64,000 bases of DNA from Deroplatys truncata. Lineage: Eukaryota; Arthropoda; Insecta; Mantodea; Mantidae. The stretch spans positions 462,281,321 to 462,345,320 of the forward strand of contig CM060990.1 in assembly GCA_030765065.1 (NCBI GenBank). The letters run 5' to 3'. A program made the translations under genes and the position numbers. Each line of letters starts with the position of its first letter. Position 1 is the stretch's first letter. Positions 28,156 through 64,000 of the stretch are shown in pieces. The notes under the pieces are model-generated. The model ran no database searches. It saw only the letters and a program-made list of their open reading frames with translations, and was not told the DNA's origin.

Positions 28156-29094
28156 TGACAACGTCTGGTCGTGGTCACCTCTTGACGTCATCTCCAATAT
28201 ATGTTGTTGATTCTGCTGCCGGCTGCTACATTTGTTGACTATGAGATCTGTAGGGGTCGTGTGAAAGGATAACACCAGTTTAAATTGACTGAGAAATTTA
28301 ATGTGATCTAATACTTGAGCTATTGAAGCGAGTTGCCGACCGTTTGAAGGTATGGATTGAAACTGGTTATGAATCGTAGCAGTTGAAACTATAACAATTG
28401 AATTATTATACCCGCTAACTTCTGCAGCATCAACTGCACGGTTTGAAAAAACTGTTTTGCAATAAAAGAAACTAGAAGCGTAACTTGCCGTGAGTCGCTA
28501 AAATGCTTACCAGTAAAACTCCTTGGCGGCTACCGCTAAATAACTGATAACCCAGCGTTGTCTTAGGCGCTATGAACTGCCGATCACCGTAGAAGACTGT
28601 AAGCCCCTAAAGCTGTACACGGAAAAAAGACAGAAAGAAATAAAGAAATCCGCTAATTTTAGCAATACACTCTCTTTTATTAACTTAAGCTCTGACCACA
28701 TCAATACCCTTACCAACGTCCCTTCTCGCACGAGCCAATATTAACAACTTCTATGTGTGGTTCTCTCACCTTGTTACTATGCAAAACCTCCCCGAATCTA
28801 AGAAATTCATTTACCTTCCTCTTTCACATAATTTCTGTCTACGTAATTGTTCAAACATAATGAACTTAAATCCAACTGCATTCCAGGAACATTTACGCTA
28901 ATACACGGCTGTTGCTAATTACTTTGCTAGCCTGACCAGCTAATGATCCTTTCTTTCGGACAAATCTTTTAACTCATGCCTATTACATTAGCAACGTTCA
29001 GAAATATATTCAGAGATTATTATAATTATTTCTCTATCGTACTATTATTTCTTTATTTTATTATTTATATCTTCCTGTCAATAATTACGTATCA
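28156..29094 (-). repeat. 3' LTR of LTR element 1 (intact copy)
   Basis: 939 bp, TG...CA. It aligns with the split right copy over its length, for example the shared GTGTGAAAGGATAACACCAG near 28260 and 33070. It preserves the empty target sites: a single TA at 28390-28391 where the other copy has the mariner element, and a single TGCTTA at 28504-28509 where the other copy has the Polinton-like element. Confidence 0.85.
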
Positions 29095-29606
29095 AAATAC
29101 CCCGTTACATTCGTTTATAATTCTTAATAATAAAAGAATGTACACCTTTGCCCAAATAAAATTTTAACTTTAAATTTAGCTGAACCCTGTCGGCAACTCT
29201 TTCAATTTTCTTATATATTTTTACAAATTTCTTCTTTACAGCTCATTCATACATACAAGTACTTCTAGAACAATTGCTAACTCTTATCTTCACAAATTAA
29301 ATACAATATTAATTATGCTAAATTTTCTATACTATTTTAAATTTTTATTTGCTCTTCTTTTGAACTTATATACATTTCCAAGAGTCTTTGTTCTGGTATT
29401 TTATCGAAGCACTGACTTTAATGTTTGTTATGTTCACTTCACTTTCTTCTGCTTAATACAACTTTTTACAATTTTGAACTTATTCTCTGGTTAAAATTTT
29501 CAGAATCTTGGCTTCCATGTCATGCATATTTATTATAATCATCTATAAACAAAATTGCACCCACAAATTCAATTATCGAAAGTTAGAAGTACCTAACTGC
29601 ATCCTA
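29095..29606. other. AT-rich internal region of LTR element 1
   Basis: Lies between the 3' LTR and the gag remnant. No pol domains or clear polypurine tract. Apparently pol has been lost or was never present. Confidence 0.4.
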
Positions 29607-34522: not shown

Positions 34523-34524
34523 TA

Positions 34525-34642
34525 TAACAATTGAATTATTATACCAGCTAACTTCTGCAGTATCAATTTTATGGTTTGAAATAACTGTTTCTGCAATAAA
34601 AAAACTAGAAGCGTAACTTGCCTGGAGTCGATAAAATGCTTA
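34525..34642 (-). repeat. 5' LTR of element 1, segment 2
   Basis: Homologous to 28392-28509 of the intact LTR. It ends in TGCTTA (34637-34642), the left target duplication of the Polinton-like element. Confidence 0.85.
34637..34642. repeat. 6-bp target duplication TGCTTA (left)
   Basis: Repeated at 43372-43377. The uninterrupted paralogous LTR has a single TGCTTA at 28504-28509. A 6-bp duplication is the length made by Polinton/Maverick integrases. Confidence 0.88.
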
Positions 34643-34854
34643 GGTAGTATAGAAATGAGAGATCCAGCGCACGTAATAAGCAGGAATGTGCCCCGGGTAC
34701 CTTTTCGTAGCAGCTGAGGCCATAAATTTTATGAAGTATAATGGAGAGGTTGACAGGCATGCAATTAAAGTTGTCCATCACCTGTCAAAAGGACCAATTC
34801 TGCAATAAATAATGCTTTCTAACAAAAGAGGAGACGCTATTCTCCCCATTCCAT

Positions 34855-35330
34855 TCCCTGCACACGTGGTCGTTAGGAAGGCCACACCTGTAGCAACCCC
34901 CTTCCCCAGCTGCATTCTCTCTCCAAACACGTGCACCCGGGCAAAATAACAAAGACCGTACCTTCTTCCTGTCAAAATGAATAATGGTGTAATAAATTAT
35001 GTCCTGTGACAAATCAACAAGCGTTATTGCCTCCATTCCATTGTCCCACGCAGGTGTTCGTTAGGAAGGCTCCACATGTAGCAACCCCACCTCCACAGCA
35101 TTCTATTCTCTCTCCAAACACGTGCAATATAACAATAGAACAGACTGTGCCATGGTAACAAAAGAAGCTAACAAAGCACAAGCGCTATTGTCTGCATTCC
35201 ATTGTCCCGCGCAAGTGTTCGTTAGGAAGGCTACACATGTAGCAACCCCTTCACCCCACAGCATTCTATTCTTTCCAAACACGTGCAGCGATAACAAAAG
35301 ATCAGGCTCGTGCCCGCGATAACAGAATAA
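34855..35330. repeat. Subterminal tandem repeats in left TIR
   Basis: Three diverged units share the core CGTTAGGAAGGC with starts at 34871, 35059 and 35220 (spacing 188 and 161 bp). Each is preceded by CATTCCATTGTCCC-like sequence and followed by a TGTAGCAACCCC motif and a TCCAAACACGTGCA motif with an E-box CACGTG. They are mirrored in the right TIR at about 42700-43120. Possible transposase/integrase or replication-protein sites, by analogy only. Confidence 0.65.
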
Positions 35331-35729
35331 TTCTTGGATCCAATGCTATTATACCTGTCGTGTGTTTCTTTGACGGTGAAAAAGAGAGAGAGACCCGCTC
35401 CCACCAGGCTAGCTTCCATTCACTATAGACGGCAACATGATGCTACCGACTTTGTCCCGCGGGCAGTTCTCTCTGAGAGCAGCCAAAAGTTCACGAAGAC
35501 CTACGGGCATTTGCGAAGATAGATACACAAGATCGAAATAACTCTAACACTTCCACCAAGCACATGAACCTGCACGACAACCTGCAAGAATCACCGAATA
35601 TAGTTATACATGCTCTAACTCTCTGTTTTTGCATCTATTGGCTCTTTCAAACAGTGATATCAAAATGCATTTAACATATATCACTACCTATATTAAACCA
35701 CTGTGTATATTTAGGTGTCCTTAGGTCTG

Positions 35730-36153
35730 TGTTCTAATCTTATTGCAGGCAAAAGCTTAATGTTTTAATTGCGAAGAAAAATTTATACTTTGATAGGGTT
35801 AAACATTATTATATCATTACCCTGATTAATGAAAGGCGTCCCCGGGTATTCAGAGGTCCGAGTTCGAGTCTTAGTGTAGTGAAACATTAATGCTTAATAA
35901 CTTAAAATTTAGGAACATAGATGAGTAGGGTAAATCATGTTTATTTTTTATATATCATTACGATGTTTAATGCAGTGTATTCTTAGGTACCCAGAGGTCT
36001 TAGTTCGAATCTTACCCTGCTAAACTCTTATGCTTAATAAATATTAAACTATGTGAGTATGCGTGGCCAAATTGAAATGTATTTAACTAATATAATTATT
36101 TTATATTAAACCTGGAGTATACTTATGTATCCCGATGCCTAGACTCGATTCTT
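35730..36153 (+). repeat. tRNA B-box-like motif ladder in left TIR
   Basis: Four motifs related to the pol III B box GGTTCGANTCC occur at 35731 (TGTTCTAATC, decayed), 35861 (AGTTCGAGTC), 36002 (AGTTCGAATC) and 36141 (AGACTCGATTC), spaced 130, 141 and 139 bp. Each is preceded by a GGT(A/G)(C/T)CC...AGGTC-type segment. The right TIR carries the same series inverted (about 41832, 41970, 42115 and 42245), where the motif decayed at 35731 still reads GATTCGAAC. Confidence 0.7.
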
Positions 36154-36385
36154 TATTCTTTCTTTCCTCTTTTCTCATTTTCTTTCTTTTCCCTCTTTCT
36201 ATCTATATATCTTTCTTTCTTATTGACATGCATATATCCAAGCATTCGTACACGAGCACACGAACAGAGCCATTACACATACATATACACACATACGTAT
36301 ACATACAACAATACACTTACATACACACACATACGCCAACAAGCATACACACATACACCGGTGCACACACAGACACACACGCTAG
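36150..36385. repeat. TC- and CA-rich low-complexity tract in left TIR
   Basis: Pyrimidine-rich (CTTT/TTTC) then ACATACAC-type repeats. Mirrored at 41583-41830 in the right TIR. Long ORFs here arise from composition. Confidence 0.8.
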
Positions 36386-36714
36386 CATTATTGTCTTTAC
36401 AGAATTCAAAAATCATTGTTTCATTTTCCCTGTAACCTAGCAAACTGTAATTCTTTTCAGGCTACCACATTCACATGATTTTCATCATCAGCGCATTTTA
36501 TAGCTCGTGTAAAGACATTATGGAAGTATTCGCAGGGGGAGAGAGAGTGAGAGTGAATGGGAGAGGGGGAAACTCAACTCAACGCGAATAGAAGTGATGA
36601 GAGTCTCTGCGCATGTGCAACAGGTGATAACTCCATTGGGTACAATAATCACGTCACGTGTAAACAACTCTGCTATGATGATGTGCTGACATAGACAGGT
36701 GGGATTTAGATCTC

Positions 36715-36746
36715 TATATAAACAGCTAACGACGCTGGCTGGAGTC
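36715..36746 (+). promoter_or_regulatory. Candidate inward promoter in left TIR (TATA + Inr)
   Basis: TATATAAA at 36715-36722 is followed by initiator-like TCATTA with its A at 36746, 31 bp from the TATA start, which is textbook spacing. It points into the element toward the capsid-like genes. The mirrored TATA is retained in the right TIR (41240-41247, pointing left). Confidence 0.5.
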
Positions 36747-36880
36747 ATTACGAGCTTATTAACTCTACATTTAAATTTTAAAGAACTTCATAAATAGCAA
36801 CGCAGGGTGTATTTTTAATTTAAGAAGAGGTGCGAGTCATCGATTTCTACACACACACGGCATTCATCAAGACGATACAA

Positions 36881-36892
36881 TGCAAGGTGAGT
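36881..36892 (+). promoter_or_regulatory. Candidate splice donor of a TIR leader exon
   Basis: CAAG/GTGAGT with GT at 36887, about 140 nt after the predicted start site. The same donor is conserved in the right TIR (41088-41098, inverted). This suggests a spliced 5' leader; no acceptor was identified. Confidence 0.35.
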
Positions 36893-37681
36893 GAGTTTTT
36901 ACATAACTATACAAATCAGTGTTGGCTTTTACGATGCATTTAATGTTGTTTAAACGATGCAGTGCATGAAAGACGAATCTTTGCAAGAGTATCATATTTG
37001 TTAATCTGAACTTTACACTCACATGGATTTCTCGGTACGCTCTTCTTGCATTCACATTAATGATGTTTACTCTACAACCTCTTCTTCCATTAACATTCAC
37101 ACGATTTTCACTACTCATTCTTTGTTTCTCTACACATTCTTCTTCCACGAACATTCATATAATTTTCTCTACACATTCTTCTTGCATTCACACGATTCTC
37201 TCAACCCACTCTGTGTTTCACCATGACAGGAATTTCTACACTCACTCTTCTTCCATTCACCATCACCTGCATTTCACCACCTACCACTTCTACCAAGCAC
37301 CCGAATATGTATGAAGACCTACGAGTATATCAGAACACAAAGATCCATAAACATACTTACTACCTCCTGCTTTTTTACAAAACTAGCACTTCTATCAAGC
37401 AGCCGAACCTATACGAAGACCTACGGATATCCCTGAACACAAACACGCATAAACATATTTATAAAAAACAGCGGTCATGTAGCACAAATACTTTAGTTCT
37501 AATATAAGGTTAGTGACATTATTCAGAAGCTTTATAGCGTGATTAGCATCCGTGGAATCTTGAAACTAGCGAGAGAGTTAGAAAGACCCCTCAGAGGTGT
37601 TAAGGTTCTGTATAACACTAAGAGGTTTCAGAATTTCAACTCAGTCATCTGCGGGCACTTGTGCTTGTAATTTGTATCGCA

Positions 37682-38169
37682 ATGAATTACACTGTTGCTG
37701 TCAGTGGCAACGAATCTGTTCCTACTACGTACCTAAATCCCCCTATTCAGATAGATCTAAAGGGACATTATAAGATATTGATTTGTTGAAATCTTCTATT
37801 CTACCCCCAATGCTGATCAGAGTAATAATCAATTTCTTTACATTCACAATGATGAAATTAAAGGCTCGATACACCTGATGGAACTTACGAAATTGCTGAT
37901 ATTAACGAATACACCAGAGATAAGCTAGGGGTGGATTAGAAAGTCTTCTTTATTAGATCAATTAATAATAACGCCATGAAGCCTGAAATTAAATGTCCTT
38001 TCACTATTGATTTTTTCCAATGATTGTTCTAAAGGAACGCTCTGGGGGCATCAGTGCCAATAAAGTTATTCCAGCTAATCTGTTGACTGAAGCTGATTTC
38101 CTGGTGAATATATTTAAATTGAGCATCATGCGAATCGAGCGCAGTATTGCATCAGTCTCTTTCATCGAC
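37682..38169 (+). pseudogene. Penton-like (minor capsid) protein of Polinton type, decayed
   Basis: A start-like ATG at 37682 leads to LNPPIQIDLKGHYKI, the PI-x-L/I-D strand that opens Polinton/adintovirus penton-like proteins. After a nonsense codon and frameshifts, further blocks are FYSTPNADQSNNQF (37796-37837), PDGTYEIADINEY (37872-37913), NNNAMKPEIKCPFTIDF (about 37965-38013), and ISANKVIPANLLTEADF with IFKLSIMRIE (38052-38138). These match, in order, the conserved blocks of the single-jelly-roll penton. The C-terminal part of the usual gene is absent; the frame runs on into capsid-like sequence. Non-functional. Confidence 0.72.
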
Positions 38170-39258
38170 GGTAAAAATGACGAGATTATAATCGCTTGAC
38201 AAGCAGAGGATTTATATACATTACTTAATTGAAGTTATCTATATATCAATGGAAGTATTACTAAACCTAATGGAGCAGCTACTACTGCAAAGCTTACCAA
38301 TAACGCTATTGCTTTCATGTTTTAGGATATTCGATTGGATATGAACGGGTCAACTATTGATCGAACCAGAAACCCATGGATCGTTTCTGCTGCTGTCAAC
38401 TCAATGGATTCTGATCGTCTGGCGAATGCTGGATGGTGTTATCCAGGAGAAGACATGGACATTGTACATGTAGCAAATGGAGCCTTCAATGCTGTAGTAC
38501 CGGTTTTGATGCTTCTGAGATTTTGCTGGCGATCACAAGGAGCTCATGCCCAATAGCCGGTTGGTAGTGGTTGGTGATTCGATCCAAGTACTCTAAAAAC
38601 TGTATTATAGTGCCTCAGGGTGAAGAGAATGCTGGTGTGAAACTTGCACGAATCGAGTGGATAATGTCTGTGATTCAACTTTCTGATGTTGAAATGCTTG
38701 AAATCCTCAAGACTGCCAAGCCGGATAAGACTCTGTTTCACTCATTTAGGACCATGGATCTGCATGCTCAGCCTGCTGTACCGCAAGCATGCACCTGGAA
38801 TGTCGCCACCACATCAAAATCTAGAAGTCGAGATTTGCCATTTTAGGCTCTCAGACTTCAAGATAGAGTTATGCATCTAAGGACTGTTCCCTTTTTTATT
38901 ATTCTAACTAACCAATTTTTGAGGCTTTATCCTGATAGTGAATGTTATTCCTGTCACGATAGAAGATTGGACTTTGGAAACTCGAGATATGCATCATTGT
39001 ATGATATGTACTCAAGCTCTTATTATGAAAAAGACAATTGCCCTTTATTGGAGAGAAAAGACTTTCTTAAATATGCCCCCTATATTTGCTATAGATTGCT
39101 CGCATCACACAGAGGAATTTGTAAATGGAGCTGTCAACATCAGAATAGAAATTCAAGTTAATGTAAATATCACTGCACAGGCCTCATTGTATTGTTTAAT
39201 AATTCATGATAAAGTATTCACATACAAGCCTCTGACTCATGTGAACCAGCTTACATTT
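38170..39258 (+). pseudogene. Double-jelly-roll major-capsid-like protein, decayed
   Basis: Blocks in order: DLYTLLN...YLYINGSITK (38208-38263), LTNNAIAFMF and LDMNGSTIDRTRNP (38292-38372), LANAGWCYPGED (38421-38456), then after frameshifts NAGVKLARIEWIMSVIQLSD (38629-38690), FHSFRTMDLHAQPAVP (38737-38784), FLRLYPDSECY (38919-38950), YASLYDMYSSSYY (38988-39026), IFAIDCSHHTEEFVNGAV and SLYCLIIHDKVFTYKPLT (39185-39238). I recognise an unannotated protein common in insect genomes. The NG-x-x-I/V-D strand and its neighbourhood with a penton-like gene in a Polinton-type element support a major capsid role. Four or more disruptions. Confidence 0.65.
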
Positions 39259-39319
39259 TAAACTAATCATTGTAATGTAGGGATTTCTTTTTCATTAGGA
39301 ATGCTAGGATTTTTTAATG

Positions 39320-39325
39320 AATAAA
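39320..39325 (+). terminator. Poly(A) signal after capsid-like gene
   Basis: AATAAA about 60 bp after the last capsid-like codon. Confidence 0.5.
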
Positions 39326-40483
39326 ACATGATGTAAAAGCATACCTTCATTCTTTTTTATCATACAATCCAAGCACTTTCCTACTCCAACTGCTCGTTGC
39401 TGCATATGGCATTACAATTGCAACGGTTAGGTTATGCAATCATCAACATTAAAAATTATTTTCACAATCATTTAAATTACTGCTTCCAATTCTTATTTTC
39501 GCCATTATATAGGGAGACTCGCTCGAGCTAACTCTCAGCTATGCCTTGGAATGTATACAAAATTGTCTGTGTTTTTCACTATAAGCACTGGAAGATCGGA
39601 GAAGAACCCTATCTTAACGTTGCGTGTTCTCGAGATGTAGACGTCTCTGTGCACGCTTATTGCATGTTTCGGTAATGTAGTGAGGGTGGTTATCTATCCA
39701 CCAAGAGCGTCAGAATTCTTTCCTGGGCTGCAAATCAGTTCTTCTTCCCCTTATTCCGTCTGAAACGCTACACACTGAAAGTCTTAGAAAACTTGCTTTT
39801 GGAAGTGATGGTAACCTGAAAACAATTTACATTTTTTGTTAGGCTACATGGAAATTGAAACACAAAAGATTTGTATAAACATTAGGATATCAGGCGTTAT
39901 TTCAATGTGAGATAATATATATATATATATATATATATAACTGAATACAAAACATGTGACATTATGATTTCATGAATGTTTTTTATAATTTCTATAACAT
40001 GTATCTTTTGTGTCTTTATATGTAATATCAATGAGTCAGCTGCTTTATTTATGATTTTTTTTCGTAGTAAAATAGGAACAACATTGAATACTTAGGTTTG
40101 ACATTTCTGCACACCTTCGCTGCGGCTACCAAAGACAATTTGCATGTCTTAAATTTCCCCATCTCTGCCATGCCCTTATATATCAAATATACTTTGTCAG
40201 ACAATTCTGCAAACCCTTCGAATTATAGCGTTCAGGCAAGAACACTTGGCAGTCCTGCAGCGAAGATACGATCCTGATACCGTATCTTGTTTGAGCTCTC
40301 TTTAAGGCATTTACTCATATTTAAGATCTATTTCGAGATCTTGAACTCACCGAGTCGGTAGGAAACTGCGCTCTTCAGCCATCTGGTTAAGTCTATCTGC
40401 TAAACACTCTGTAGCAGACATTGATCATGAATTGTTTTCTCAATGTATTATTCAGATGCAACGACAAGTTATGCATTTCTTAA
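39326..40483. other. Rest of the Polinton-like core, no gene recognised
   Basis: Contains an (AT)n run at 39917-39939 and a 45-codon open frame at 39541-39678 with no known similarity. Any leftward genes expected here are not recognisable. Confidence 0.4.
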
Positions 40484-43371
40484 ATTAGAACCAAAGTATG
40501 TGTTGTGCTACATGGACGGAGGTTTTTGTAGGTATGTTTATGCAGGTTTGTGTTTGGGGATATCCCTAGGTCATCGTACACGTTCGGGTGCTTGATAGAA
40601 GTGCTAGGTTTGTAACAAAGCAGGAGGTACTAAGTATGTTTATGCATCTTTGTGTTTGGGTATTCTGGTAGGTCTTCGTACAGGTTCGGGTGCTTGGTGG
40701 AAGTGGTAGTTTGTGTCAATCATGTAGGTAGTGAAATCTGTGTAATGGTGAATGGAAGAAGAGTGTGTGTAAAACTTCCTGTGATGGTGAAATAAAGAGC
40801 GGGGAGAGAGAATCGTGTGAATGAAAGAAGAATGTGTAGAGAAACAAAGAATGAGTAGTTAAAATCGTGTGAATATTAATGAAAGAAGAGATTGTAGAGA
40901 AAACCGTATTAATGTGAATGGAAGAAGAGCGTGCCGAGAAATCCATGTGAATGTAAAGTTCAGATTAAAAAATATGATACTCTTGCAATGATTCGTCTTT
41001 TATGCACTGCATCGTTTAGGCAAAATTAAATGCATTGTAAAAGCCAACACTGATTTGTATAGTTATGTAAAAACTCACTCACCTTGCATTGTATCGTGTT
41101 GATGAATGCTGTGTCTGTAGAAATCAATGACTCTCACTTCTTCTTAAATTAAAAAATCCTCGCGTTGCTATTTATGAAGTACTTTAAAATTTAAATGTAG
41201 AGTTAATAAGCTCGCAATGGCTCTAGCAAGCGTCGTTTGCTGTTTATATAGAGATCTAAATTCCCACTGGCTATGTCAGCACATCGTCATTGCAGAGTTG
41301 TTTACACGTCACGTGATTATTGCACCCAATGGAATTATCACATCTTGCACATGCGCAGAGACTCTCAGCACTTCTATCCCCGCTTGGTTCAATTCCCCCT
41401 CTCTCTCTCACTCACTCTCTCTATCTTTGAGAGTACCTCCATAATGTCTTTACACGAGCTGTAGAAAATGCGTTGTGGATGAAAGTCATGTGAATGTGGT
41501 AGCCTGAAAAGAATTACAGTTTGCTAGGTTACAGGGAAAATGAAACAAAGATTTTTGAATTCTTTAAAGACAATAATTTCCAATACTAGCGTGTGTGTCT
41601 CTGTGTGTGCACTGGTGTATGTGTGTATGCTTGTTGGCGTATGTGTGTATGTAAGTGTATTGAGGTATGTATACGTATGTGTGTATATGTATGTTTAATG
41701 GCCCTGTTCATGTGCTCGTGTATATATGAATGCCTGGATGTATGCATGCCAAGAAGAAAGAGATAGATAGATAGAAAGAAAGAAAGAGGGAAAAGAAAGA
41801 AAATGAGAAAAGAGGAAAGAAAAAATAAAGAATCGAGTCTAGGCATCGGGATACATAAGTATACTACAGGTTTAATATAAAGTAATCATATTTGTTAAAT
41901 ACATTTTAATCTGGCCACGCATATACACATAGTTTAATATTTATTAAGCATAAGAGCTTCGCAGGGTAAGATTCGAACTAAGACCTCTGGGTACCTAAGA
42001 ATGCACTGCATTAAACATCGTAATGATATATAAAAAATAAACATGATTTACCCTACTCGTCTATGTTCCTAAATTTTAATAGTTATTAAGCATTAATGTT
42101 TCAGTACACTAAGACTCGACCTCGGACCTCTGAATACCCGGGGACGCCTTTCATTAATTAGGGTAATGATATAATAATGCTTTACCCTATCAAAGTATCA
42201 AATTTTCATTAGCAATTAAAACATTAAACTTTTGCCTGTAGTAAGATTCGAACACAGACCTAAGGACACCTAAGTATACACAGTGATTTAATATAAGAAA
42301 TGAGATATGTTAAACACATTTTGATATCACTGTTTGAAAGAGCCAATAGATGCAAAAACAGAGAGTTAGAGCATGTATAACTATTTTCGGTGATTCTCGT
42401 AGGTCGACGTGCAGGTTCATGTGCTTGGTAGATGTGTTAGATTTGTTTCGTTCGTGTATATCTATCTTCTGAAATGTCCGTAGATCTTCGTGAAGTCTCG
42501 GCTGTTCTCAGAGAGAACTGCCCGCGTGGCAAAGTCGGTGCCATCATGTCGCCGTCTATAATGAACGGAAGCTAGCCTGGTGGGAGCGGGTCTCTCTCTT
42601 TCCAACCGTCAAACAAACACACGACAGGTATAATAGCATCGGCCCCTAGAGTTCTTTTGTTGTCGTGGGCACGAGCCTGATCTTTTGTTATCGCTGCACG
42701 TGTTTGAAGAGAATAGAATTCTGTGGGGAGAGGGGGTTTTTACATGTGTAGCCTTCCTAACGAACACTTGCGCGGGACAATGGAATGCAGACAATAGTGC
42801 TTGTGCTTTGTTAGCTTCTTTTGTTACCATGGCGCCAGTCTGTTCTATTGCTATATTGCACGTGTTTGGAGAGAATAGAATGCTGTGGAGGAGGAGTTGC
42901 TACATGTGGAGCCTTCCTAACGAACACATGCGCGGGACAATGGAATGGAGACAGTAAGCTTGTTGCTTTGTCACAAGAGATAATTTATTACACCATTATT
43001 TATTTTGACAGGAGAAAGGCATGGTCTTTGTTATTTTGCCCAGGTGCACATGCTTGGAGAGAGAATGCAGCTGGGGAAGGGGGTTGCTACAGGTGTGGCC
43101 TTCCTAACGACCACGAGTGCAGGGAATGGAATGGGGAGAACAGCGTCTCCTCTTTTGTTAGAAAGCATAACTTATCACAATATTGTTCATTTTGACAGGT
43201 GATGGACAACCTTAATTGCATGTCTGTCAACCTTTTCATTATATTCCACAAAATATATGACCTCAGCTACGAAAAGGTACGCGGGGGGCGTGGCAGGTGG
43301 AGGCATAATTAGCACATTATGTGCACATACCTGCATATTAAGTGCGCTGGATCTCTCATTTCTATACAACT
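40484..43371 (-). repeat. Right terminal inverted repeat of Polinton-like element
   Basis: The inverted counterpart of 34643-37509, including the B-box-like ladder, simple repeats, TATA motif and subterminal units. The two arms differ by many substitutions and small indels, so the insertion is not recent. Confidence 0.88.
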
Positions 43372-43949: not shown

Positions 43950-43953
43950 ACTT

Positions 43954-44437: not shown

Positions 44438-44441
44438 TGGT

Positions 44442-47571: not shown

Positions 47572-47574
47572 ATT

Positions 47575-48542
47575 TGCGGTGGTATACTTCAAATGTTATA
47601 TTTAATTTGTTGAGCCCCACGTTTGGGAGCCAATTTGAGACGTTATCATTAATGTTGTTTGTATATTTGTGTTTACTCCACGTGGTGAAGCCATTTTGTG
47701 ACGTGATTCTTTGTTAGGTTTGTTAGCTCCATCTGGTGTTAGCAATTTGCGGCAGTATTAGTGTTTGTTTGAAAGAATGCTAATGATATTTTATTTTTAT
47801 TTAATTTTTGGTTTACTGTCCTCCGGCTAGCTATGATCTTGTTCGAGCACTTCTCTTTATACAGGTTGTGTAAACGGAAAGGAGTCTTTTATCCAAAGAT
47901 AACACTGATGAAAGAATTTGTTTTACACTTTTATTGTCGAACACATTCACTATCACATTTACACATTGATCTTGACACTCACCAAACTGAAACTGTTATA
48001 ATAACTTCATTACTGATCACTCTTAACTTGCGTACTTCAACTTTCTGTGTAATTAACTTTACAACACTTGAGATTTTTCATAACTCTGCTGGACTGAAGG
48101 CGACGTGTAACGTACAAATATTTTCGACGAACTGACGGGGTCTATCTCTAACCTAGCCCTTTTTATACTCCTACACCCCGATATGCCTAAAGATTATAAC
48201 TGAGCTGCAATTAGCTAATAAAACGCGCCAACATTAGCGTCTATTTTTATATCCAATGAAAATTATGAATACATATGCTTTAGGGAAAATGTTCCAGAAG
48301 ATTCTGAAGAAAAAACGCGCCAACATTACGTAACTTCCTCGTCTCCAATAATGATAAACAGCTCACCCCTTCGCTGCATTATTGCACGCTATTATTGTCA
48401 GTTTCAGTAAGGCCGTATAAACTTACTTCTCAACAATAATTACAATCAACAAACATCTCAAATCAATGTCACATAAAAATACATATTCATACTGTAATCA
48501 CTCTTTACATTTAAATAATTTATGATACAAATTACTGCATCA
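47575..48542 (-). repeat. 5' LTR of LTR element 2
   Basis: 968 bp, TG...CA. It contains a minus-strand TATA box (plus 48160-48167) and, near its U5 end, three further decayed PBS-like motifs (47614-47637, 47676-47698, 47726-47750). Confidence 0.92.
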
Positions 48543-48546
48543 TGGT

Positions 48547-49927: not shown

Positions 49928-50089
49928 ATGTTTAATATAATGATAATTATTGCAAGGCTGAAAATAGAACTAATAATTATTTTATGACAGCAAACATAAC
50001 CTCACAAGCAAAATTAAATTACCATTGCGAGTTGTATACGGTATAATTATGCAACAGGAGAAACCCAGTTTTTCTTTCTCTATCACATA

Positions 50090-50375
50090 CATAGTAGGTA
50101 GAGAAGGTATTGCATTCCACCCAAAAATTCGATAACGAGATTTCACCAGAAATGCACGTTTTGAGCCCCCCGAATCCAAATAAAGCATTTTTAGAAAAAT
50201 GTCAATGTGTGTGTGTGTCTGTGGTATTTAGGCTCAGTACCTTTCAAAGATGCGACACGAAGATTTTCAGGAAAATCTTCCACCTCAAACTACACTTTAC
50301 TTGGACATTTTTCGAAATTGTTTATTTCCTAATATATGGCTGTACAGATTTTGATTAAAATACCATATATGAAAG
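50090..50375 (+). repeat. Unclassified dispersed repeat, copy 1
   Basis: Pairs in inverted orientation with 53345-53700. Shared blocks include AAAAATTCGAT, CGAGATTTCACC, TTTTGAG(C/G)CCCCC, a GTGTGTGTG run and GATTTTGATTAAAATAC. Identity is about 65-70% by eye. Class unknown. Confidence 0.6.
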
Positions 50376-51700
50376 ATATTTACATGAACCATAAAATTTA
50401 TATCTTGAATTTTCTGGGATAAGTCTATGAAGTCCTCTTCATACGGAAGGAATGTTGTATAATCTTGTATAACTGGTAAACGTTAAGCGATCGACGAAAA
50501 CGCTCTACACAAAAAATGTAGATCTCTTTAAAACACGCAGTTTATTTCAAATAAGTGTTTTGTGGCATAAGCCATTTCTGAGATATCCGATAGTAATGGT
50601 TCGAATTGTTCATTACTTTGCCATTCGCTTGAAGTACTGTCAACATTCACATGTTTCTTGCGATTGCATGGAAACAGTATGGAATTTTAAGGCAGCGTAT
50701 AGCGTCCAGTTCTTAAACATTTGACTATCGCTGTTTCGTTTGTGTCTGTAACGAAATACGTATTGCAGCTATTTCTACAAAGCCCTATCTTGATTAAAAT
50801 TAAGTAGATAGAAAAAATAAGCTTTCGTAAGAATAGTTTGTATACCCACTAACAAACGATAGAGGTTAGAGAAAGTCATGTAAATGTATCGCATCAGAAT
50901 GTTTCTTATTACATTTTATATAACATTGATCATCAAGACACTGATTTACCTATTTCATTTTTTTTAGTTCACGCACGACTTTTTATCAGTTTTTATTCCA
51001 AGCAGAACCCTGTAGCTATCTGAATATTTGAGGTTATGCCTACACGCTAACCACCAATACAGGAAAAAAGAAAGGTTTTCTCCGTCCGTTATAGAATCAA
51101 AGCAGATATGATGGGAGTAAAACAAACAAAAGTAGAGGAAGGAACTATTAGTAGCACTCTGTTGATTATAATTATCATGTGTAATACCACAAGATGTATT
51201 TAACAAATGTATTGGTACATAAATGATGAAATGTATACATCAGTCTATACTATAGCAATTAAGACTTTATATATAGTTACTGTAGTGCGATGTATCATTT
51301 GAATGCGCTGCTATGTTATTTCAATGACTTGTGAGTAATTAAGAGTAACGACATCTTGGGATAGTTTTCCCAACTAACTACAAAAAAAGACGAGGAAATA
51401 CATGTTTCTAAAGACATGTTATCAATTAAGAACACAATTAAAATTGGCACCCAGTGAAAGTAAAGGTAAACCCAGTCTGTGTATTTGAAGCCGAAATAGG
51501 TTATCACTATTTCTCAATTTGTTGATTATAACGTTACGATGTCTTCATTAATTTGTAAGGAAAGTGGGTTTTTCTTTCCATCTGTGTGGTTTGTGCGCAT
51601 GGCCTATTCAATTATTACAGAAAAAACAAATGCTATCAACTTCGACAAGATTATATCGAGAATATCACACTGAAAGGTGCCTGTGAATGGGTGAAATTTA
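50376..51700. other. Unassigned AT-rich sequence
   Basis: No gene or repeat recognised. Confidence 0.4.
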
Positions 51701-51955: not shown

Positions 51956-53344
51956 TTCCTGTTATTATAGAATCGTGTACGGTTTATAATATTATCGATT
52001 AGAATATAAAGCACTCACTTTCATATGCATTTTGTGCAGTTATAACTTTTCTCTCTATGTCTTACGGAAAACAAGCTAGTACTGGGGAATTTGACCCATT
52101 GTGCGGTGCACATGTGTTTAGTCCACCCTGAATTCACAGAAACTTAACAGCAGTCATGTTAACTTGCAGTAGAGGTAGCCTACGTATCCGGAAATATAAA
52201 TGAAGCAAGTTCATAAGGGTGCAAATCCAAACCGCGCGGAAAACATTCACCATAGAGGGAACAACGTCGGCGCGTGCGTCGGTGCCACTAGGCAGTCGCA
52301 GATTGTGCAAAATGGGTAGCAGCAACAGGGTGAATGCTACTTTTATTTTCAGGTGAAGCAGAGATTAATAACCAAATCCTGTAAGGCTAGCAAAAATTTA
52401 TTACATTAGTGACATGAAAACAAAGCTATGGTTGTAAACACCGATATGTGCAGAAATTTCAAAAGTGACGACAACACAAAATTGCTACTGCAAGTGGATA
52501 CAGAAAAACTGTATAGGCAATGAAGTAATCTTAGGGGTGTAAGAATAAATAACCAAAAATCCATCTTCAGAGAAAGTACTTTTAGTGGTAAAACAAACGT
52601 TGTAATCTCCAAGAAAAATGCTGAATTTTACATTTTTGTAAAATTAATAATGAATCAGACCAGACTGAAGGATACATAAAGAATACTTAAACAGTACATA
52701 TGTTCCGCGATTTCATGCAACCATAAAAGTTCCTCATCTCAGCTCAAATTTTGTTTTACCGACATAGAAGAAGCATTTTACTTGAAAATTAAAAAAATAA
52801 AGTCTGATGTTTTGCACCCACATGGCTTTCTCTTCTTTCTCTCTCTTGCACAAACTCTTCTTACAAACACTTATTCATCTATCTACTTCATGTTAATCGC
52901 GATAAACGTTTGCAAAAATTGCCTTATTGCATATTTTCTTAATGGTATAACGGGATTAGGGGAATACATCGCTTTAAGCGATGGTCAAATATTTTAAGAG
53001 CGGGTCGTTATGTAGGTAATGGCTTTGAAATTCCGTTCGGTTTGCATGACTAAGATAAGAAAAAGAAGCAAAAATAAATTACTTCCCATTTAAGAAAGGT
53101 ATAAGCAATTTAAAATGCAAACCAATAATAAGGAATATTTCTCAAATTGTTAGCTCAAAAAGAAGAAAGAAAGAAAGAAAGAAAGAGAAACTGGAGCTTT
53201 AACGAGATCTACATTTTGGTGTAGTAAGATTTTGTCTATCTCTTACGGTTTACCAGTTATGCAAAAGTCATTCAGAATTAAGTGGAATTCAGAGGCTATT
53301 TCCAGAAAATTCAACATACACATTTCCCTTGTCCTAAAAATATC
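51956..53344. other. Unassigned AT-rich sequence
   Basis: No gene recognised. Short AAAG repeat at 53163-53187. Confidence 0.4.
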
Positions 53345-53700
53345 TTAAACATACCGTATTTTAATCAAAATCGTTAGAGCCATTATTGAAAGATTAAATT
53401 TTCGAAACATTTTCCATGTAAAGGGTATTTTGGGGTGGGGGAATTTCTTGAAAATGGTTGTGTCGCATCCTAGAAGATGCTGAACATAAATACCAAACTT
53501 GGTTTTTGACATACTTTTCGTTTTTGAGTTATGCTGTTCACAGACACACACACACACACACTGACCTTTTTTCTAAAAGTGCTTTTTTGAGTTCAGGGGG
53601 GCCTCAAAACACCTTTTTCCGGTGAAATCTCGACATCGAATTTTTCGGTGGAATGTAATGCTTCTCTGCTTACTATATGTAGTAGAGAAAGTAAAAAGGT
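53345..53700 (-). repeat. Unclassified dispersed repeat, copy 2 (inverted)
   Basis: The inverted partner of 50090-50375, with an ACACACAC tract at 53543-53562 corresponding to the GT tract of copy 1. Confidence 0.6.
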
Positions 53701-56039: not shown

Positions 56040-56215
56040 TCCGGTAACCTCAGTAGCAGAGTGATGAGTATGCCCAACTATCACCTGGGGTACTGGGGTT
56101 CGATTCACTACTTGATAGGTAAAAGCTTTATCCACTCTAAATGTCGAACACTCCTAACGGCCTACAATTTGGCTGATGAACATAAGCGCTCATTTATTTT
56201 CTTTTATGTTATGAA
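56040..56215 (+). repeat. tRNA-derived SINE remnant
   Basis: A-box-like TAGCAGAGTGATG (56054-56066) and B box GGTTCGATTC (56097-56106), followed by a body ending ATAAGCGCTCATTTATTTT. Tail and target duplication unclear. Confidence 0.55.
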
Positions 56216-57183: not shown

Positions 57184-58340
57184 CGTCATTAGGGTATTAT
57201 TTCAAGTTGACTGGGATGCCTCGGTTCGAATCCTACGAGTGATTACAAATTCATCTTCTAATAATTCAGAGACTGATTAAGATAAAGACGACAAATAAAC
57301 TTTATTACATTAATGTCATTAGGTAGTTGCTTGTAAATGTATATATGGGTACCTGGTGTCCTCGGTTCGATCCATAATTTTAAAATCTCCATTATCTCGG
57401 AAACTAAGAGAGGTAGAGGGGTGGACCAAAGCATGATTGATAGCTCCTGTAATGGGTAATTAATACTGTAGATAATTTCCAATCAGTTGCCCTTACTTCG
57501 AATCCCGATCTTTCAATCACTTCCTTAATTTTTCTCTATACTCTATAATATATCACTTAAATTGATGCTGTAACTGTATACAGCTCTTTTAAACATATCA
57601 AACTAATATTGTAAATAATTTTGTTTCTGGTGTTCTGGGTTCGAATACCTATAAAATGTAATTTAATTATAAATTTCATAACATCTAAACTAATTAAGAT
57701 AAAGACGCGAAATAAACTTTATTGCATTTCTGTTATTAGGTAGTATCTTGTAGATGTGTAATAAGATACCTGACGTCCTGGGTTCGATCCTTAATTTTTA
57801 AATTTTCATTATCTCGGGAACTAAGTGAGGTAGAGGAGTGCACCAAAGCATGATTGATAGGTTCTGTACCGGGTGATTAATGTTGTATATAATTGTCGAT
57901 CAGTTGTACCTGGTTCGATTCCCCATCTTTTAATGACTTCCTTAATTTTCCTCTGTACACTAGAATATATCACTTAGATCGATGATGTAACTGCATACAG
58001 CTTTGTGTAACATGTCAGACTAATATTATAAATTATTTTGTTCCTGGTGTTCTGGGTTCGAATATCGATTCAATGAAATTTATTTGCAAAAATTTAATAA
58101 CTCGTAATTTAATTTAGATAGACATGTCAAGGTAAACGTAAATAGAGTATCTAGTCCTTAAATATCGTTATCATGACAAATATTACTTTAAAGTACTCAG
58201 ATCGAATCCCGAAGGGGTGATTTCATATATCTTCAAGCTTATGGATCATATCAGGTTCGAGTAAAGATTAAATGCTAGATGCTGATATTGGGGAGCTAAA
58301 ATACATTTATTAAAAGTATTACCGGGTTCGATTTAGAAGC
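57184..58340 (+). repeat. Array of tRNA B-box-like motifs in ~420-bp tandem repeats
   Basis: GGTTCGANTCC-like motifs at 57223, 57364, 57495, 57638, 57781, 57912, 58055, 58199, 58254 and 58325. The first eight are spaced 141, 131, 143, 143, 131, 143 and 144 bp. Three successive motifs form a higher unit of about 420 bp (57265-57684 resembles 57685-58105, including TAATTAAGATAAAGACG-type starts and a CATTATCTCGG segment). No matching A boxes at tRNA spacing and no cloverleafs, so these are neither tRNA genes nor simple SINE arrays. Confidence 0.8.
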
Positions 58341-58368
58341 TTAGAATCTGTGTAACTCTGGAAAAATT

Positions 58369-58885
58369 GCTTTTCTCATGATTGTAGTGAAATGTAATGG
58401 TCTTTCTGTGAGAAGATGGAAAGGAAGAATTGAAAAGGGAATAAAAACATGAAATAATTAAGTAAATAAGGGGGAAAATCTTCTACGTTACCTTTTAAGC
58501 TTTTACTCTAAGAATTGTGATAATACAGCTGGAATTAACCTTGGTACAATAGGTGATGGTGGTGGTGGTGGTGGTGGGGGTGGTGGTGGGGGTGGTGGTG
58601 GTAGGCTTTGAATTTGAAATATATGCCTGAATGAGCGTTTGCTTTTCTCGTGATTGCAGTGAAATGTAATGGTCTTTCTGTGGGAAGATGGAAAGGAAGA
58701 ATTGAAAAAGGAATGAAAACATGAAATAATTAAGTAAATAAGGGGGAAAATCTTCTAGGTTTCCTTTTAAGCTTTTACTTTTAAATATTGCGATAATACA
58801 GCTTGAATTAGCCTTGGTACAATAGGTGGTGATGGTGGTGGTAGTGGTGGTAGGCTTGAATTTGAAATATATGTCTGAATGAGCG
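58369..58885 (+). repeat. 272-bp tandem duplication with (GGT)n
   Basis: Two copies starting GCTTTTCTC(A/G)TGATTG at 58369 and 58641. Each has a GGT/GGGGGT microsatellite near its end (58552-58604 and 58825-58853) and a TGAATGAGCGT end. They sit between the B-box-like array and the polymerase promoter. Confidence 0.85.
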
Positions 58886-58959
58886 TGTGGGAATACCTCT
58901 CTTGCTGGTGTGACAGCATAAGCAGGTAGTTATGAGACGAGTTTAAACGTGTTTGATGC

Positions 58960-59274: not shown

Positions 59275-62200
59275 ATGAATAACTCAGCGTATAAGGATAT
59301 TATTCCAAGCGCTACTGGATATGCATGCGGAAAATGTGGGAAGAAGTTCCTCCGAGTTTATCACAAGAGAAGGCACGAGATGAGCTGCAAGAAGCTCTTC
59401 AAATGTAAACATTGCAATGCAACCTTCAAAGATGGTTATAAGGGGCAGCGACACGAAGATATATGTGAAATAAGCATCCCTCAGAAGAAAAGAAGATTGG
59501 AGCCAACTAAACATCAGCTATTATTAACAATGGAGGACTGTGATATGAAAGAATACGAAACTTCATTCGAAGGACGATTGAAATCGTATTTTATACGATG
59601 CGAATCAGCTAAGGACCTAAATATGTATCTGCATGAAGCAAAACAACGCATAATCCAGGCTGTGCATAAAGAGCTTGGTATTCACAAGAGTGTTAAAATT
59701 AATCTGCTGGTTGAGTGTCGATTTGTTAACAGTATTGGAGAAACCTGTGACAAAACATTTAAAACACGGAATCAAGCTGTCTTCCTGGAAACAGATCTGG
59801 ACTCAACACTGGAAGCGAAATTCAAGAAATTGGTGACTGAAATGGAGGAGTCTCAGCTTAAGGGTAGCAACTGGGCTTTGCTTGCTGTGGAAGGAGTTCG
59901 ACTTCGTATCAACAAGTACAACCCGTCACGAGGAAGTAGCTACATACCACTACCGTCATCTGTCGGAGCTAAAGAAGCGTGTATAAACATTCAGAACTTT
60001 ACCGACGAGAAATGTTTCATGTACTCTATATTAGCTAAATTCATAGGGAAGAATGCACAGCGTGTGAACAAATACAAACAACTTCAAGACAAGCACGACT
60101 TCAGCCGTGTTTCCTACCCTACTCCACTTTCTCAAATACCTAAATTTGAGAAGCTTGACAATATGTCTATTAACGTTTTCGGGCTGGATGAGAAGCATGA
60201 AGTGTATCCGATAAAGGTTGCTGATATTGAACTACCTGAACATCGCGACCTGCTACTATTGAATGACAGCAGTGTAAAACATCACTACGTGTATATAAAG
60301 AATTTTGAGAAGCTCGTTCGACGCCAGAAAACTAAATGTAATGAACGTGTTTATACCTGCAAGCGCTGTTTTACACATTTTGATAATCGATATGGAAGAA
60401 GTGGACTGGAAAAACTACAAGAACATGCAGCTACCTGTAACCAACATGGTGTTGCAAGGGTAGTTATGCCTACCAAGGAGAAATCAATTGTACAGTTTAA
60501 AAATATTGAGAGGATGCTGAAACTACCTTATGTCATCTATGCTGATTTTGAGAGTATTCTCACTCCATGCCATAAGTGTATACCCAATCCTGAAACATCC
60601 TATACAACCCCTTATCAAGAGCACACACCAATGAGCTTCTGTGTTTACGTGAAGCCTACATCCAGTGTTGAACATCTCGAAACTGGTCTTCCTAAGCAAC
60701 CCTATGTATATCGTGGTGCTGATGCTGCTCAGAAGTTTATGCTGTACCTGACATCTCTTGCAAAAATGATTGATGACGTATACAAATCTGCTAAGCCTCT
60801 GAAACTTACGGATCAACAGCAAAAGGATTTTGAGTCTTCTACGACATGCTACTTGTGTGGAAAACCCTTTACAGAAGAGAACTATAAAGTACGCGACCAT
60901 GATCACATCAGCGGTGAATATCGTGGAAGTCTTCATAATGAATGTAATTTAGCCTGCAAAACACCTAAATATATCCCAGTCTTCATGCATAACCTTAGCG
61001 GATATGACTCGCATTTCATTGTAAAGGAGTTGGGGTGCACAAGTGAACGTGTGGAGGTAATTCCTAACTCTGAAGAAAGCTATATCTCATTCACCAAGTA
61101 TGTAGGAGATATAAAGCTTCGATTTGTGGATAGCTTCCGATTCCTCAGTACAAGGTTGGATAAGTTGGTAAAAAATCTAACCTCATATCCAGAAACACTA
61201 AAGTACTTCGGAGAAGACAAATTGAAGTTGATGACACGTAAGGGCGTATTTCCATATGATTTTGTTACGTCATGGGATGCCCTGAACGAGACCTGCTTGC
61301 CTCCTAAGGACTCCTTCTACAATAGATTAAATGAAGAAGAAATTACTGATACTGACTACGATCATGCCAGAAATGTATGGGAGCTGTTTAATGTGAGAAA
61401 CCTGGGAGAGTACAGCGATCTCTACTTAACTTCGGATGTACTTCTTCTAGCTGACGTCTTTGAGACGTTCAGAGAGCAAACCCTCAAAACACATAAAGTC
61501 GATCCGGTCCATTATTTTACCTCTCTAGGTCTTACATGGGACGCTATGTTACTGTATACTGGAATTAAGTTAGAGCTGTTACAAGATTATAATCAACTAC
61601 TCATGGTGGAATCAGGTATAAGAGGAGGTTTATGTCAAGTTTCTCATCGGTATGCAGAGGCTAATAACACTTATATGGAGAAGTTTGATCCGTCCAGACC
61701 AACCCAATTTATCACATACGAGGACGCTAATAACCAATATGGGTGGGCAATGTGTCACGCCCTTCCTTTTGCTGGATTTCAGTGGGTGTCACCAGAAGAA
61801 ATCAACTTAGAAACACTACAAGAAAATGATCCTCATGGGTACATATTAGAAGTCGATATCGAGTATCCTGCAGAACTTCACGATCTACACAACGATCTAC
61901 CTTTCCTGCCAGCGTGTATGAAACCATTGGAAGCATCTACAAAGAAACTGATACCTCATCTTGGACCTCGAAAGAAGTATGTAGTACATTACATGGCTTT
62001 GAAGCAAGCTCTTAGTCATGGACTACGAGTAACAAAAATCCATCGTGTGCTACAATTCCGACAGTCTCGGTGGTTGAAACCTTATGTGGAATTTAAAAAC
62101 AGGCTACGACAACAAGCTGGAAATGATTTCGAGAAGGATCTCTACAAGCTCTTTAACAACGCCATGTTTGGAAAAACTATGGAGAACCTGCGTAACCGTA

Positions 62201-62928
62201 TGGACATACGACTGGTGACCAATGAAAAAACTCTAGAGAAGCTGATCGCTAAGCCTACGTTTATCGACAGGACGATATATGCTGCTAATTTAGCTGCTGT
62301 TCATATGGCCTGTCGTCAGATTGTGTTCAATAAGCCCATATACATTGGAATGAGTGTGTTGGACATCTCCAAGACATTAATGTATCACTATCATTACGAC
62401 GTGTTGTTGCCTTATTACGGAGCTGGAAACCTGAAGCTTATGTATATGGACACTGATTCATTCATTCATCGTGTAACAACTGAAGATGTGTACCAGTACA
62501 AGCTACGTTTTCTTGAGCATCTCGATACAGCTCATTACCCTGTCAATCATATATGCCACTCTACTCAGAACAAGAAGGTATTGGGAAAATTTAAAGATGA
62601 GGCTAATAGCAAAATCATCCTAAGCTTTGTTGGACTACGTCCTAAGATGTATGCCTTAGATATTCAAGGCTCAATTATAAAAAAGATTAAAGGTATAAAA
62701 CGTAGCGCTATTAAGCAGTACATTACATTTGACAGCTATACAGACTGTCTTAAAACCTGTGAAATCATCAGAACTCCCATGAATCTAATCCTGTCACAAA
62801 AGCATGCTGTTACCACAGTACACGTGAATAAAATTACATTGAATCCCTTTGATGATAAAAGAATTATTGCCGAAGATGGAATAACTACCTATGCGTATGG
62901 ACATTACGCCATTACAAACAGTGCTTAA
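59275..62928 (+). CDS. polB: Protein-primed-type family B DNA polymerase of Polinton/adintovirus type (1217 aa, intact)
   Basis: A single exon with no disruption. Residues 18-64 hold two C2HC zinc fingers (C18, C21, H34, C38; C44, C47, H60, C64), followed by a basic KKRR at 71. Residues about 235-400 are a conserved module with DEKCF (C247) and HHY (H336), followed by a Cys-rich CxxC...H...C element; it may be an OTU-like protease fold. Exo I is D424-F-E426, Exo II N573...YD578, Exo III Y717LTSD721, giving 3'-5' proofreading. Inserted between Exo I and II is an endonuclease VII-like zinc module (C525, C528, D541-H-D-H544, H554, C557). Polymerase motif A is D817ANNQYG, motif B K958LFNNAMFGK, motif C D1059-T-D1061. 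All metal-binding residues are present. In the family this enzyme replicates linear element DNA from a terminal protein. Start chosen as the first ATG after the TATA/Inr leader. Likely the polymerase of a second, intact element extending past the window. Confidence 0.9.
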   Translation: MNNSAYKDIIPSATGYACGKCGKKFLRVYHKRRHEMSCKKLFKCKHCNATFKDGYKGQRHEDICEISIPQKKRRLEPTKHQLLLTMEDCDMKEYETSFEGRLKSYFIRCESAKDLNMYLHEAKQRIIQAVHKELGIHKSVKINLLVECRFVNSIGETCDKTFKTRNQAVFLETDLDSTLEAKFKKLVTEMEESQLKGSNWALLAVEGVRLRINKYNPSRGSSYIPLPSSVGAKEACINIQNFTDEKCFMYSILAKFIGKNAQRVNKYKQLQDKHDFSRVSYPTPLSQIPKFEKLDNMSINVFGLDEKHEVYPIKVADIELPEHRDLLLLNDSSVKHHYVYIKNFEKLVRRQKTKCNERVYTCKRCFTHFDNRYGRSGLEKLQEHAATCNQHGVARVVMPTKEKSIVQFKNIERMLKLPYVIYADFESILTPCHKCIPNPETSYTTPYQEHTPMSFCVYVKPTSSVEHLETGLPKQPYVYRGADAAQKFMLYLTSLAKMIDDVYKSAKPLKLTDQQQKDFESSTTCYLCGKPFTEENYKVRDHDHISGEYRGSLHNECNLACKTPKYIPVFMHNLSGYDSHFIVKELGCTSERVEVIPNSEESYISFTKYVGDIKLRFVDSFRFLSTRLDKLVKNLTSYPETLKYFGEDKLKLMTRKGVFPYDFVTSWDALNETCLPPKDSFYNRLNEEEITDTDYDHARNVWELFNVRNLGEYSDLYLTSDVLLLADVFETFREQTLKTHKVDPVHYFTSLGLTWDAMLLYTGIKLELLQDYNQLLMVESGIRGGLCQVSHRYAEANNTYMEKFDPSRPTQFITYEDANNQYGWAMCHALPFAGFQWVSPEEINLETLQENDPHGYILEVDIEYPAELHDLHNDLPFLPACMKPLEASTKKLIPHLGPRKKYVVHYMALKQALSHGLRVTKIHRVLQFRQSRWLKPYVEFKNRLRQQAGNDFEKDLYKLFNNAMFGKTMENLRNRMDIRLVTNEKTLEKLIAKPTFIDRTIYAANLAAVHMACRQIVFNKPIYIGMSVLDISKTLMYHYHYDVLLPYYGAGNLKLMYMDTDSFIHRVTTEDVYQYKLRFLEHLDTAHYPVNHICHSTQNKKVLGKFKDEANSKIILSFVGLRPKMYALDIQGSIIKKIKGIKRSAIKQYITFDSYTDCLKTCEIIRTPMNLILSQKHAVTTVHVNKITLNPFDDKRIIAEDGITTYAYGHYAITNSA

Positions 62929-63139: not shown

Positions 63140-63289
63140 GGTATGTTGACGCAAAACTTTTCAATTTGTGAACAAATATGCAGTTTATCCCTCTCCGCAT
63201 AACTGTTTAACATATAATAAGTTTGTAATATTTAGAAAAAAGTATATAAATTGTTGTAACGTTGGATGAGAAATGTTTATAATCTAATT

Positions 63290-64000
63290 ACTCTCTATAT
63301 TACCATGAGTACCTTTGATACTAGTTGAATTAACTGTTAAAATGACTTAAATACCTGTGATACTACCCGAATCATGTGAAATTACCTTAACTAGCTCTGA
63401 TACGAATTCCTGCTCTAAATTAGCACGAGCACCTGTGATACTATCTGGTTTGCCTTAAATACCAATGATACTAGATGAATTACCTGTTAAAATGACACAA
63501 ATACCGTTGATACAACCTGAATCACCTGCATTTACCTTAAATAGCTGTGATACAAACCTCTGATCGAAATTATCAATAATATCTGTGAAGCTATGTCGAT
63601 TACCTCAAATACTTACGATATTACCCGAACTATCTGTGAAATACGAAGCTATGTTATAACCGACCCCTGGAACCTACCCTCCTGTAATGCTAGCTGAATT
63701 ACTCTAAATGCCTGTGATACTTGAATTAACCTAAATACCTACGATACTCTCTGAATTACCTGTGAAATACGACACTAAGCTATACCCAACCCTAGAATCT
63801 ATCCTCTTGTGATACTAGCTGAATTAGCCTAAATAGCTACGATACTAGCTGAGTTACCTGTGAAATCATGCATAGCTATGATGCAGTTAGCCTCCTGTGA
63901 TACTAGCATAATTAGCTTAAATGCTCACAATACTAGCTGAATTGCCTGTGAAAATGACTTAAATACCTGTGATACTACCCGAATCATGTGAAATTACCTT
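63290..64000 (+). repeat. Minisatellite with ~612-bp higher-order period
   Basis: Degenerate units of about 22-25 bp of the form TACCTGTGATACTAGCTGAAT, alternating with ACCTGTGAAAT(G)ACTTAAA. A stretch of about 48 bp beginning AATGACTTAAATACCTG at 63341 recurs essentially unchanged at 63953, giving a higher-order period of 612 bp. The array runs off the window end. Confidence 0.85.

Follow-up and report, generated by a model that had tools for sequence, protein, structure and literature searches.

A ladder of B-box-like motifs beside a DNA polymerase gene and in both arms of a decayed Polinton-type element in the mantis Deroplatys truncata

Overview

The stretch of Deroplatys truncata DNA analysed here (64,000 nucleotides, hereafter the window) contains an array of B-box-like motifs, partly built by a trimeric duplication, beside an uninterrupted DNA polymerase gene, and the same motif at the same spacing recurs in both arms of a Polinton-type element, E1. 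We read this ladder as what may be a subterminal tandem-repeat array of Polinton/Maverick-type elements, kept as multiple protein-binding sites, and assign this reading a probability of about one half. Polintons are kin of many eukaryotic DNA viruses and, to our knowledge, little has been established about their cis-acting sequences. A ladder common to two virus-like elements would provide a concrete candidate site of action for element or host proteins, and could also serve as a marker for the ends of decayed copies.

Sites and duplicated monomers of ladder 1

The first-pass annotation of this DNA had reported about ten copies of a GGTTCGA(N)TCC-like motif in 1.1 kb, eight of them at intervals of 131-144 bp. 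The array, here called ladder 1, comprises the following features.

57184..58340, forward strand: ladder 1, ten B-box-like sites in monomers of about 139 bp of types A, B and C (from motif positions and 7-mer counts)
57223..57233, forward strand: motif A1, GGTTCGAATCC
57364..57374, forward strand: motif B1, GGTTCGATCCA
57495..57505, forward strand: motif C1, ACTTCGAATCC
57638..57648, forward strand: motif A2, GGTTCGAATAC
57781..57791, forward strand: motif B2, GGTTCGATCCT
57912..57922, forward strand: motif C2, GGTTCGATTCC
58055..58065, forward strand: motif A3, GGTTCGAATAT
58199..58209, forward strand: motif AGATCGAATCC, in the phase of a third B, flanks without significant alignment to the array
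58254..58264, forward strand: extra site GGTTCGAGTAA, out of phase
58325..58335, forward strand: motif GGTTCGATTTA, near the phase of a third C, flanks without significant alignment to the array
57272..58120, forward strand: tandem duplication of a 417-bp trimeric unit (Tandem Repeats Finder, 82% identical)

All ten copies are indeed present between 57223 and 58335, every one on the forward strand, and the proposed rhythm holds for the first eight, which follow one another at 141, 131, 143, 143, 131, 143 and 144 bp, the ninth and tenth being off the rhythm at 55 and 71 bp. Eight of the ten sites carry GGTTCGA exactly. This word occurs 11 times on the forward strand of the window, eight times inside the 1,157-bp stretch of ladder 1 and three times elsewhere, and three times on the reverse strand, never within ladder 1. 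Among forward-strand 7-mers with at least three different letters, eleven reach six or more copies per 1,157 bp, namely GGTTCGA (eight copies), nine words of a different tandem array (63.3 kb) and a further word at 22.0 kb. Two solitary strong matches to the motif, GGTTCGATTCA (56097-56107) and GGTTCGAATTC (20684-20694, reverse strand), have no in-phase neighbours.

A duplication that had gone unrecognised in the first-pass annotation accounts for part of the array. The 417-bp unit, made up of three monomers of about 139 bp, is present twice with 82% identity across 300 ungapped bp, the monomers running in the order A-B-C-A-B-C-A, and three of the ten motifs are therefore copies. With the motifs left out, flanks of the same type compare at z 14.5 to 24.3 for B1-B2, C1-C2 and A2-A3, those of A1 at z 3.5 with A2 and 0.4 with A3, and those of A, B and C among one another at z -0.8 to 2.7, so that any common ancestry of monomers A, B and C would be very old. 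For the last three sites, no significant alignment of the flanks to the rest of the array was obtained.

The neighbouring polymerase gene

59275..62928, forward strand: uninterrupted 1217-aa DNA polymerase ORF with an endonuclease VII-like stretch, starting 935 bp past ladder 1

In a search of this ORF against Pfam, only an endonuclease VII-like domain scored above the cut-off, and no polymerase family, family B included, was matched even at E<=10. Twelve of its 111 database relatives carry PF03175, which we take to be DNA_pol_B_2. Named relatives are found in Halyomorpha halys (52% identity) and Rhodnius prolixus (52-53%), with those from aphid, mussel, spider and others being more distant. 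A 16-row alignment shows little variation in the stretches DANNQYG and YMDTDS, which we take to be polymerase motifs A and C. The rest of the polymerase element lies beyond the window end (64000), nothing else of it being visible within the window.

Two further repeats adjoin the gene. A 272-bp tandem duplication and a GGT microsatellite occupy 58367-58889, between ladder 1 and the gene, and a second diverged tandem array, in which CCTGTGATACTAGCTGAATTA-like words recur every 88-150 bp, lies 3' of it (63276-64000) and runs off the window.

Among viral contigs, a single-protein query with the polymerase found no match, and an alignment-based search gave seven polymerase loci, of which L001 and L002 hold most of the gene. 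The relative on L001 is 37% identical, and other ORFs of this contig, read by eye, appear integrase-, ATPase- and capsid-like. L001 and L002 contain at most one GGTTCGA and none of the seven viral loci has more than three on a strand; a generic three-rung motif pattern occurs in at least 120 stretches of the viral contigs and is uninformative. The phage collection yielded no match.

A second ladder in a decayed Polinton-type element

34642..43371 (first base 34642 or 34643), no strand assigned: E1, decayed Polinton-type element of 8,730 bp with inverted repeats and capsid remains
34644..37508, forward strand: left terminal inverted repeat of E1, 87.7% identity over 2,865 columns (34691-37508), plus 48 bp at 91.7%
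40479..43370, reverse strand: right terminal inverted repeat of E1, with 43287-43322 unaligned to the left arm
28390..29095, forward strand: paralogous empty site for E1, matching 34523-34642 at 90% and 43372-43950 at 75%
38326..39258, forward strand: broken double-jelly-roll capsid gene in the interior of E1 (PF21738, four ORF pieces)
35670..36181, forward strand: ladder 2 in the left arm of E1, motifs at 35730, 35861, 36002 and 36142, reading inward
41800..42314, reverse strand: ladder 2 in the right arm of E1, motifs at 42244, 42112, 41969 and 41829, reading inward

E1 is assigned to the Polinton type, in a decayed state, because it combines inverted repeats (arms of about 2.8 kb, 88% identical), a probable target duplication with an empty site, and remains of a double-jelly-roll capsid gene. 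The word TGCTTA flanks it at 34637-34642 and 43372-43377, which would give a target duplication of 6 bp, or of 5 bp with the terminal A counted as part of E1 (the element then starting with AG), and the paralogous empty site supports an insertion of E1 into another repeat. Searched separately, the four capsid ORF pieces match PF21738 at E-values of 2.1e-6, 1.1e-9, 1.6e-8 and 1.1e-10, each passing the curated cut-off; the frame is broken between pieces, and the final two, which lie in different frames, overlap. No ORF of 150 aa or more is found in E1. The outer part of its left arm also holds, outside ladder 2, about three tandem copies of a repeat of about 161 bp (34819-35314).

The association of the motif ladder with a virus-type element, suggested by the first-pass annotation, is strengthened by ladder 2, which lies in the same window about 20 kb from ladder 1 and consists of four units at spacings of 131, 141 and 140 bp in both arms of E1. 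Since the arms are copies of each other, it counts as one independent ladder. Its sites score 9.5 to 15.1 on a weight matrix built from the ten ladder 1 motifs, and the phased run of four sites per arm compares with a maximum of three in shuffles at a loose threshold (reached in 1 of 100) and of two at a strict one (4 of 100), a significance that applies to a matrix trained on ladder 1 only and to one window of 64,000 nt. The motifs point inward in both arms of E1, and toward the polymerase gene in ladder 1.

The three best other matches in the window to a profile of the seven ladder 1 monomers are units of E1 (16.3, 14.4 and 10.5 bits; E 4e-4, 1.5e-3 and 0.025), and of 100 shuffled windows 0, 0 and 2, respectively, scored as high; in the reverse direction, the three best non-self matches of an E1 profile fall in ladder 1 and are weak (E 0.13, 0.58 and 0.73). 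Once the motif is masked, the cross-element match drops to 4.1 bits (E 3.7), which is reached in 78 of 100 shuffles and is not significant, so that the demonstrable likeness of the two ladders lies in the motif, the period of about 140 bp and the inward orientation and does not extend to the spacers. In the 28 flank comparisons between the ladders z ranged from -1.2 to 3.3, and a conserved trimer phase between them was rejected, no pattern being seen across these comparisons. The monomers of E1 are tandemly repeated even without the motif, with z of 2.7 to 6.7 in five of six pairs and 0.5 in the sixth.

Other repeats of the window include direct repeats of 973 bp, 98.8% identical (44441-45413 and 47574-48543), which are probably the LTRs of a recent LTR retrotransposon. 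An ORF of 341 aa between them (46134-47159, reverse strand) has only a sub-threshold coiled-coil match in Pfam, and a protein search with it found no match at E<=0.001. Inverted repeats at 50069-50543 and 53188-53696, about 69% identical and lacking visible phased motif sites, perhaps belong to an old terminal-inverted-repeat element.

Conservation of the motif relative to the spacers

The first-pass annotation held that the sequence between the motifs had diverged more than the motifs themselves, and had named equal conservation of the two as evidence against selection. On alignment of the units, the statement stands for the old monomers. When ladder 1 was cut at phases independent of the motif, CTSGGTTCGAW formed the best-kept 11 columns in 7 of 7 cuts, with column-shuffle P of 0.005-0.16, one unit being misaligned in one cut and the duplicated units not being independent; across the older monomers A, B and C the motif is thus moderately better kept than the remainder of the monomer. 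Between the two recent 417-bp copies, equal conservation is what was found: the motif 11-mers are identical at 28 of 33 positions (85%) vs 82% overall (P=0.46) and the core hexamers at 17 of 18 (P=0.13), no excess over the spacers, which limits the greater divergence of the spacers to the old A, B and C monomers.

The CpGs of the motif are kept in 3 of 3 cases between the 417-bp copies vs 2 of 10 for other CpGs (P=0.035); pooled with the arms of E1, the figures become 6 of 7 vs 59 of 100 (P=0.24), with no significant difference. A comparison of one E1 arm with the other likewise gave no excess, motif identity being 95.5% vs 94.3% locally (P=0.53). GTTCGAATCTTA and TATATCAYTAC are the two prominent blocks of the E1 monomers. 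Of five cuts, one placed the motif block at the top, three placed it after TATATCAYTAC, and one gave it third place (tied for second).

Resemblance to the B box and to tRNA

Across the 18 units (ten of ladder 1 and eight of E1), T4, C5 and A7 are invariant and G6 is found in 17, followed by T9 (16), G2 (15), T3 and C10 (14 each) and A8 (9), while positions 1 and 11 are variable. To judge by sequence, this column-wise variation looks much like the B-box pattern GWTCRANNC, which is complete in 9 of the 18 units and has one mismatch in seven and two in two. The window holds 16 GTTCRANNC sites, half of them (8) within the two ladders. The palindromic TCGA is better kept in these units than the C at position 10.

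The sites had been described as not being tRNA genes, without A boxes at tRNA spacing and without cloverleafs, and the searches agree. No tRNA gene was predicted, no Rfam family reached its gathering score and no cloverleaf was found; the best A-box candidates at tRNA spacing have 2-3 mismatches in all 18 units, the same as at random positions, and T-arm pairing averages 2.6 of 5 vs 1.9 at random positions. At E<=10, no tRNA-family match lies over any motif in the three stretches scanned, and 57184-57800 gave no tRNA-type match. Two matches far under the gathering score, an 11-nt T-arm fragment of the tmRNA model over 57912-57922 (7.1 bits, E 3.3) and a tRNA match at 35911-35985 (13.8 bits, E 8.6) that falls between motifs, form no tRNA over a motif. 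With no credible RNA match, tRNA genes and known RNAs were rejected as the identity of the ladder units. A proposed likeness of the E1 core to the 3' half of tRNA-Pro was also discarded, the tRNA covariance model giving it no support.

Interpretation and alternatives

If the ladder is a subterminal array kept for protein binding, each monomer of about 140 bp would contribute one inward-facing GTTCGANTC motif, and ladder 1 would sit in a terminal repeat of the polymerase element. The motif would then be a retained, repeated binding site for a sequence-specific protein at the element ends, possibly one that the element encodes (the integrase or a replication protein) or one from the host, for example TFIIIC, and several sites at roughly nucleosome-sized spacing might raise the local protein concentration there. 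Counted against this reading are the lack of excess conservation in recent copies and between the E1 arms, the pooled CpG result, the loss of the cross-element match on masking, the polymerase ORF without a Pfam polymerase match and with no other part of its element visible in the window, and the viral contigs L001 and L002 with at most one GGTTCGA.

The main rival, which we regard as rather unlikely, is a SINE- or tRNA-derived satellite, in which Polinton ends acquired a tandemly amplified box B fragment, so that the motif survives by ancestry and unselected. Such an origin would suit motif columns that vary like a tRNA T-loop and recent copies with no excess motif conservation, and the accessible parts of a study of SINE-derived satellites describe a 67-nt snake unit spanning the 3' part of the SINE head with box B plus body, and a gecko unit of 139 nt (PMC10702118). 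However, plain ancestry leaves unexplained why the motif outlasted its flanks in two ladders, and the stretches tried gave no tRNA-family match over the motifs at E<=10 (one tmRNA T-arm fragment apart), with A boxes no better than random and T-arm pairing little above it. It is very unlikely, in our estimation, that ladder 1 is a local host minisatellite lying beside the polymerase gene by chance and ladder 2 a separate satellite: the spacers of the two are not demonstrably related and the window is rich in other tandem duplications, but the motif, its period and its inward orientation recur at two virus-like elements, inside one and beside the other, and phased runs exceed those in shuffles, both of which speak against coincidence.

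The ladders could also be TFIIIC arrays proper, in which TFIIIC, but not Pol III, would be brought to element ends by solo B boxes, with a role in boundary formation, nuclear tethering or integration targeting, an explanation we consider improbable. The invariant T4, C5 and A7, the near-invariant G6, the variable position 8 and C10 in 14 of 18 units come near the B-box pattern, the ladders account for half of the GTTCRANNC sites in the window, and partial texts of two papers supply precedents in the five-B-box boundaries of S. pombe (PMC4502379) and the Drosophila ETC loci (PMC4226948). Against it, half of the units lack the full GWTCRANNC, and C10 is less well conserved than the palindromic TCGA. 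The more specific proposal of an animal Polinton lineage with a conserved solo-B-box ladder in its long terminal repeats, recruiting host TFIIIC to both ends, seems quite improbable. If true, the element would exploit the Pol III machinery as a landing platform, whether to replicate, to target integration or to escape silencing.

No description of a cis-acting TFIIIC-type system for Polintons was found in the literature searched; Polinton combined with B box and tandem repeat returned no paper, and Maverick/Polinton with TFIIIC one general review only. Such a ladder is not described in the accessible parts of PMC8097293, PMC6431247, PMC8268682, PMC10702118 and PMC4502379, nor in those of PMC12220804, PMC5391098, PMC4226948 and PMC3573991.

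Comparison with known systems

E1 resembles Polinton/Maverick elements in its inverted repeats, its probable 5-6-bp target duplication and its double-jelly-roll capsid remains, and ladder 1 adjoins a virus-type polymerase. According to the available portion of one survey, duplications of 5-6 bp flank some Polinton-like viruses, and inverted repeats measuring between 100 bp and 8 kb were accepted (PMC12220804). The arms of E1, at about 2.8 kb, exceed the terminal repeats of 46-1,447 bp given for intact vertebrate Mavericks in the portion available of PMC8097293, and they differ further in carrying a 140-bp motif ladder, for which no description was found in the literature searched. Polinton-linked tandem repeats in themselves have precedent, since the oyster satellite CgiSat52 (1,656 bp) is annotated as DNA/Polinton in the text available of PMC8268682.

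The squamate SINE-derived satellites are similar in that their tandem units, of 67, 139 and 143 nt in the part of the source at hand, derive from parts of SINEs and the snake unit has box B (PMC10702118); there, however, the parent SINEs are known, and the array described here lies inside a virus-like element. The IR-L and IR-R boundary elements of S. pombe likewise present a cluster of five B boxes, but they form a host boundary of the mating-type locus and involve no transposon, and the role of TFIIIC rests, in the accessible text, on B-box deletions and inference (PMC4502379). The B boxes of the Dictyostelium rDNA palindrome differ in lying on extrachromosomal rDNA, and the sites targeted there by TRE5-A have, according to a partial source, A-box-like sequences. 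Galileo, of the P superfamily, has an unrelated transposase and repeats of about 210 bp in its F subfamily, and a B-box-like motif is not mentioned in the part of its description available (PMC3573991); its likeness to the present arrays lies in tandem direct repeats inside long inverted repeats, which were proposed there as secondary transposase sites.
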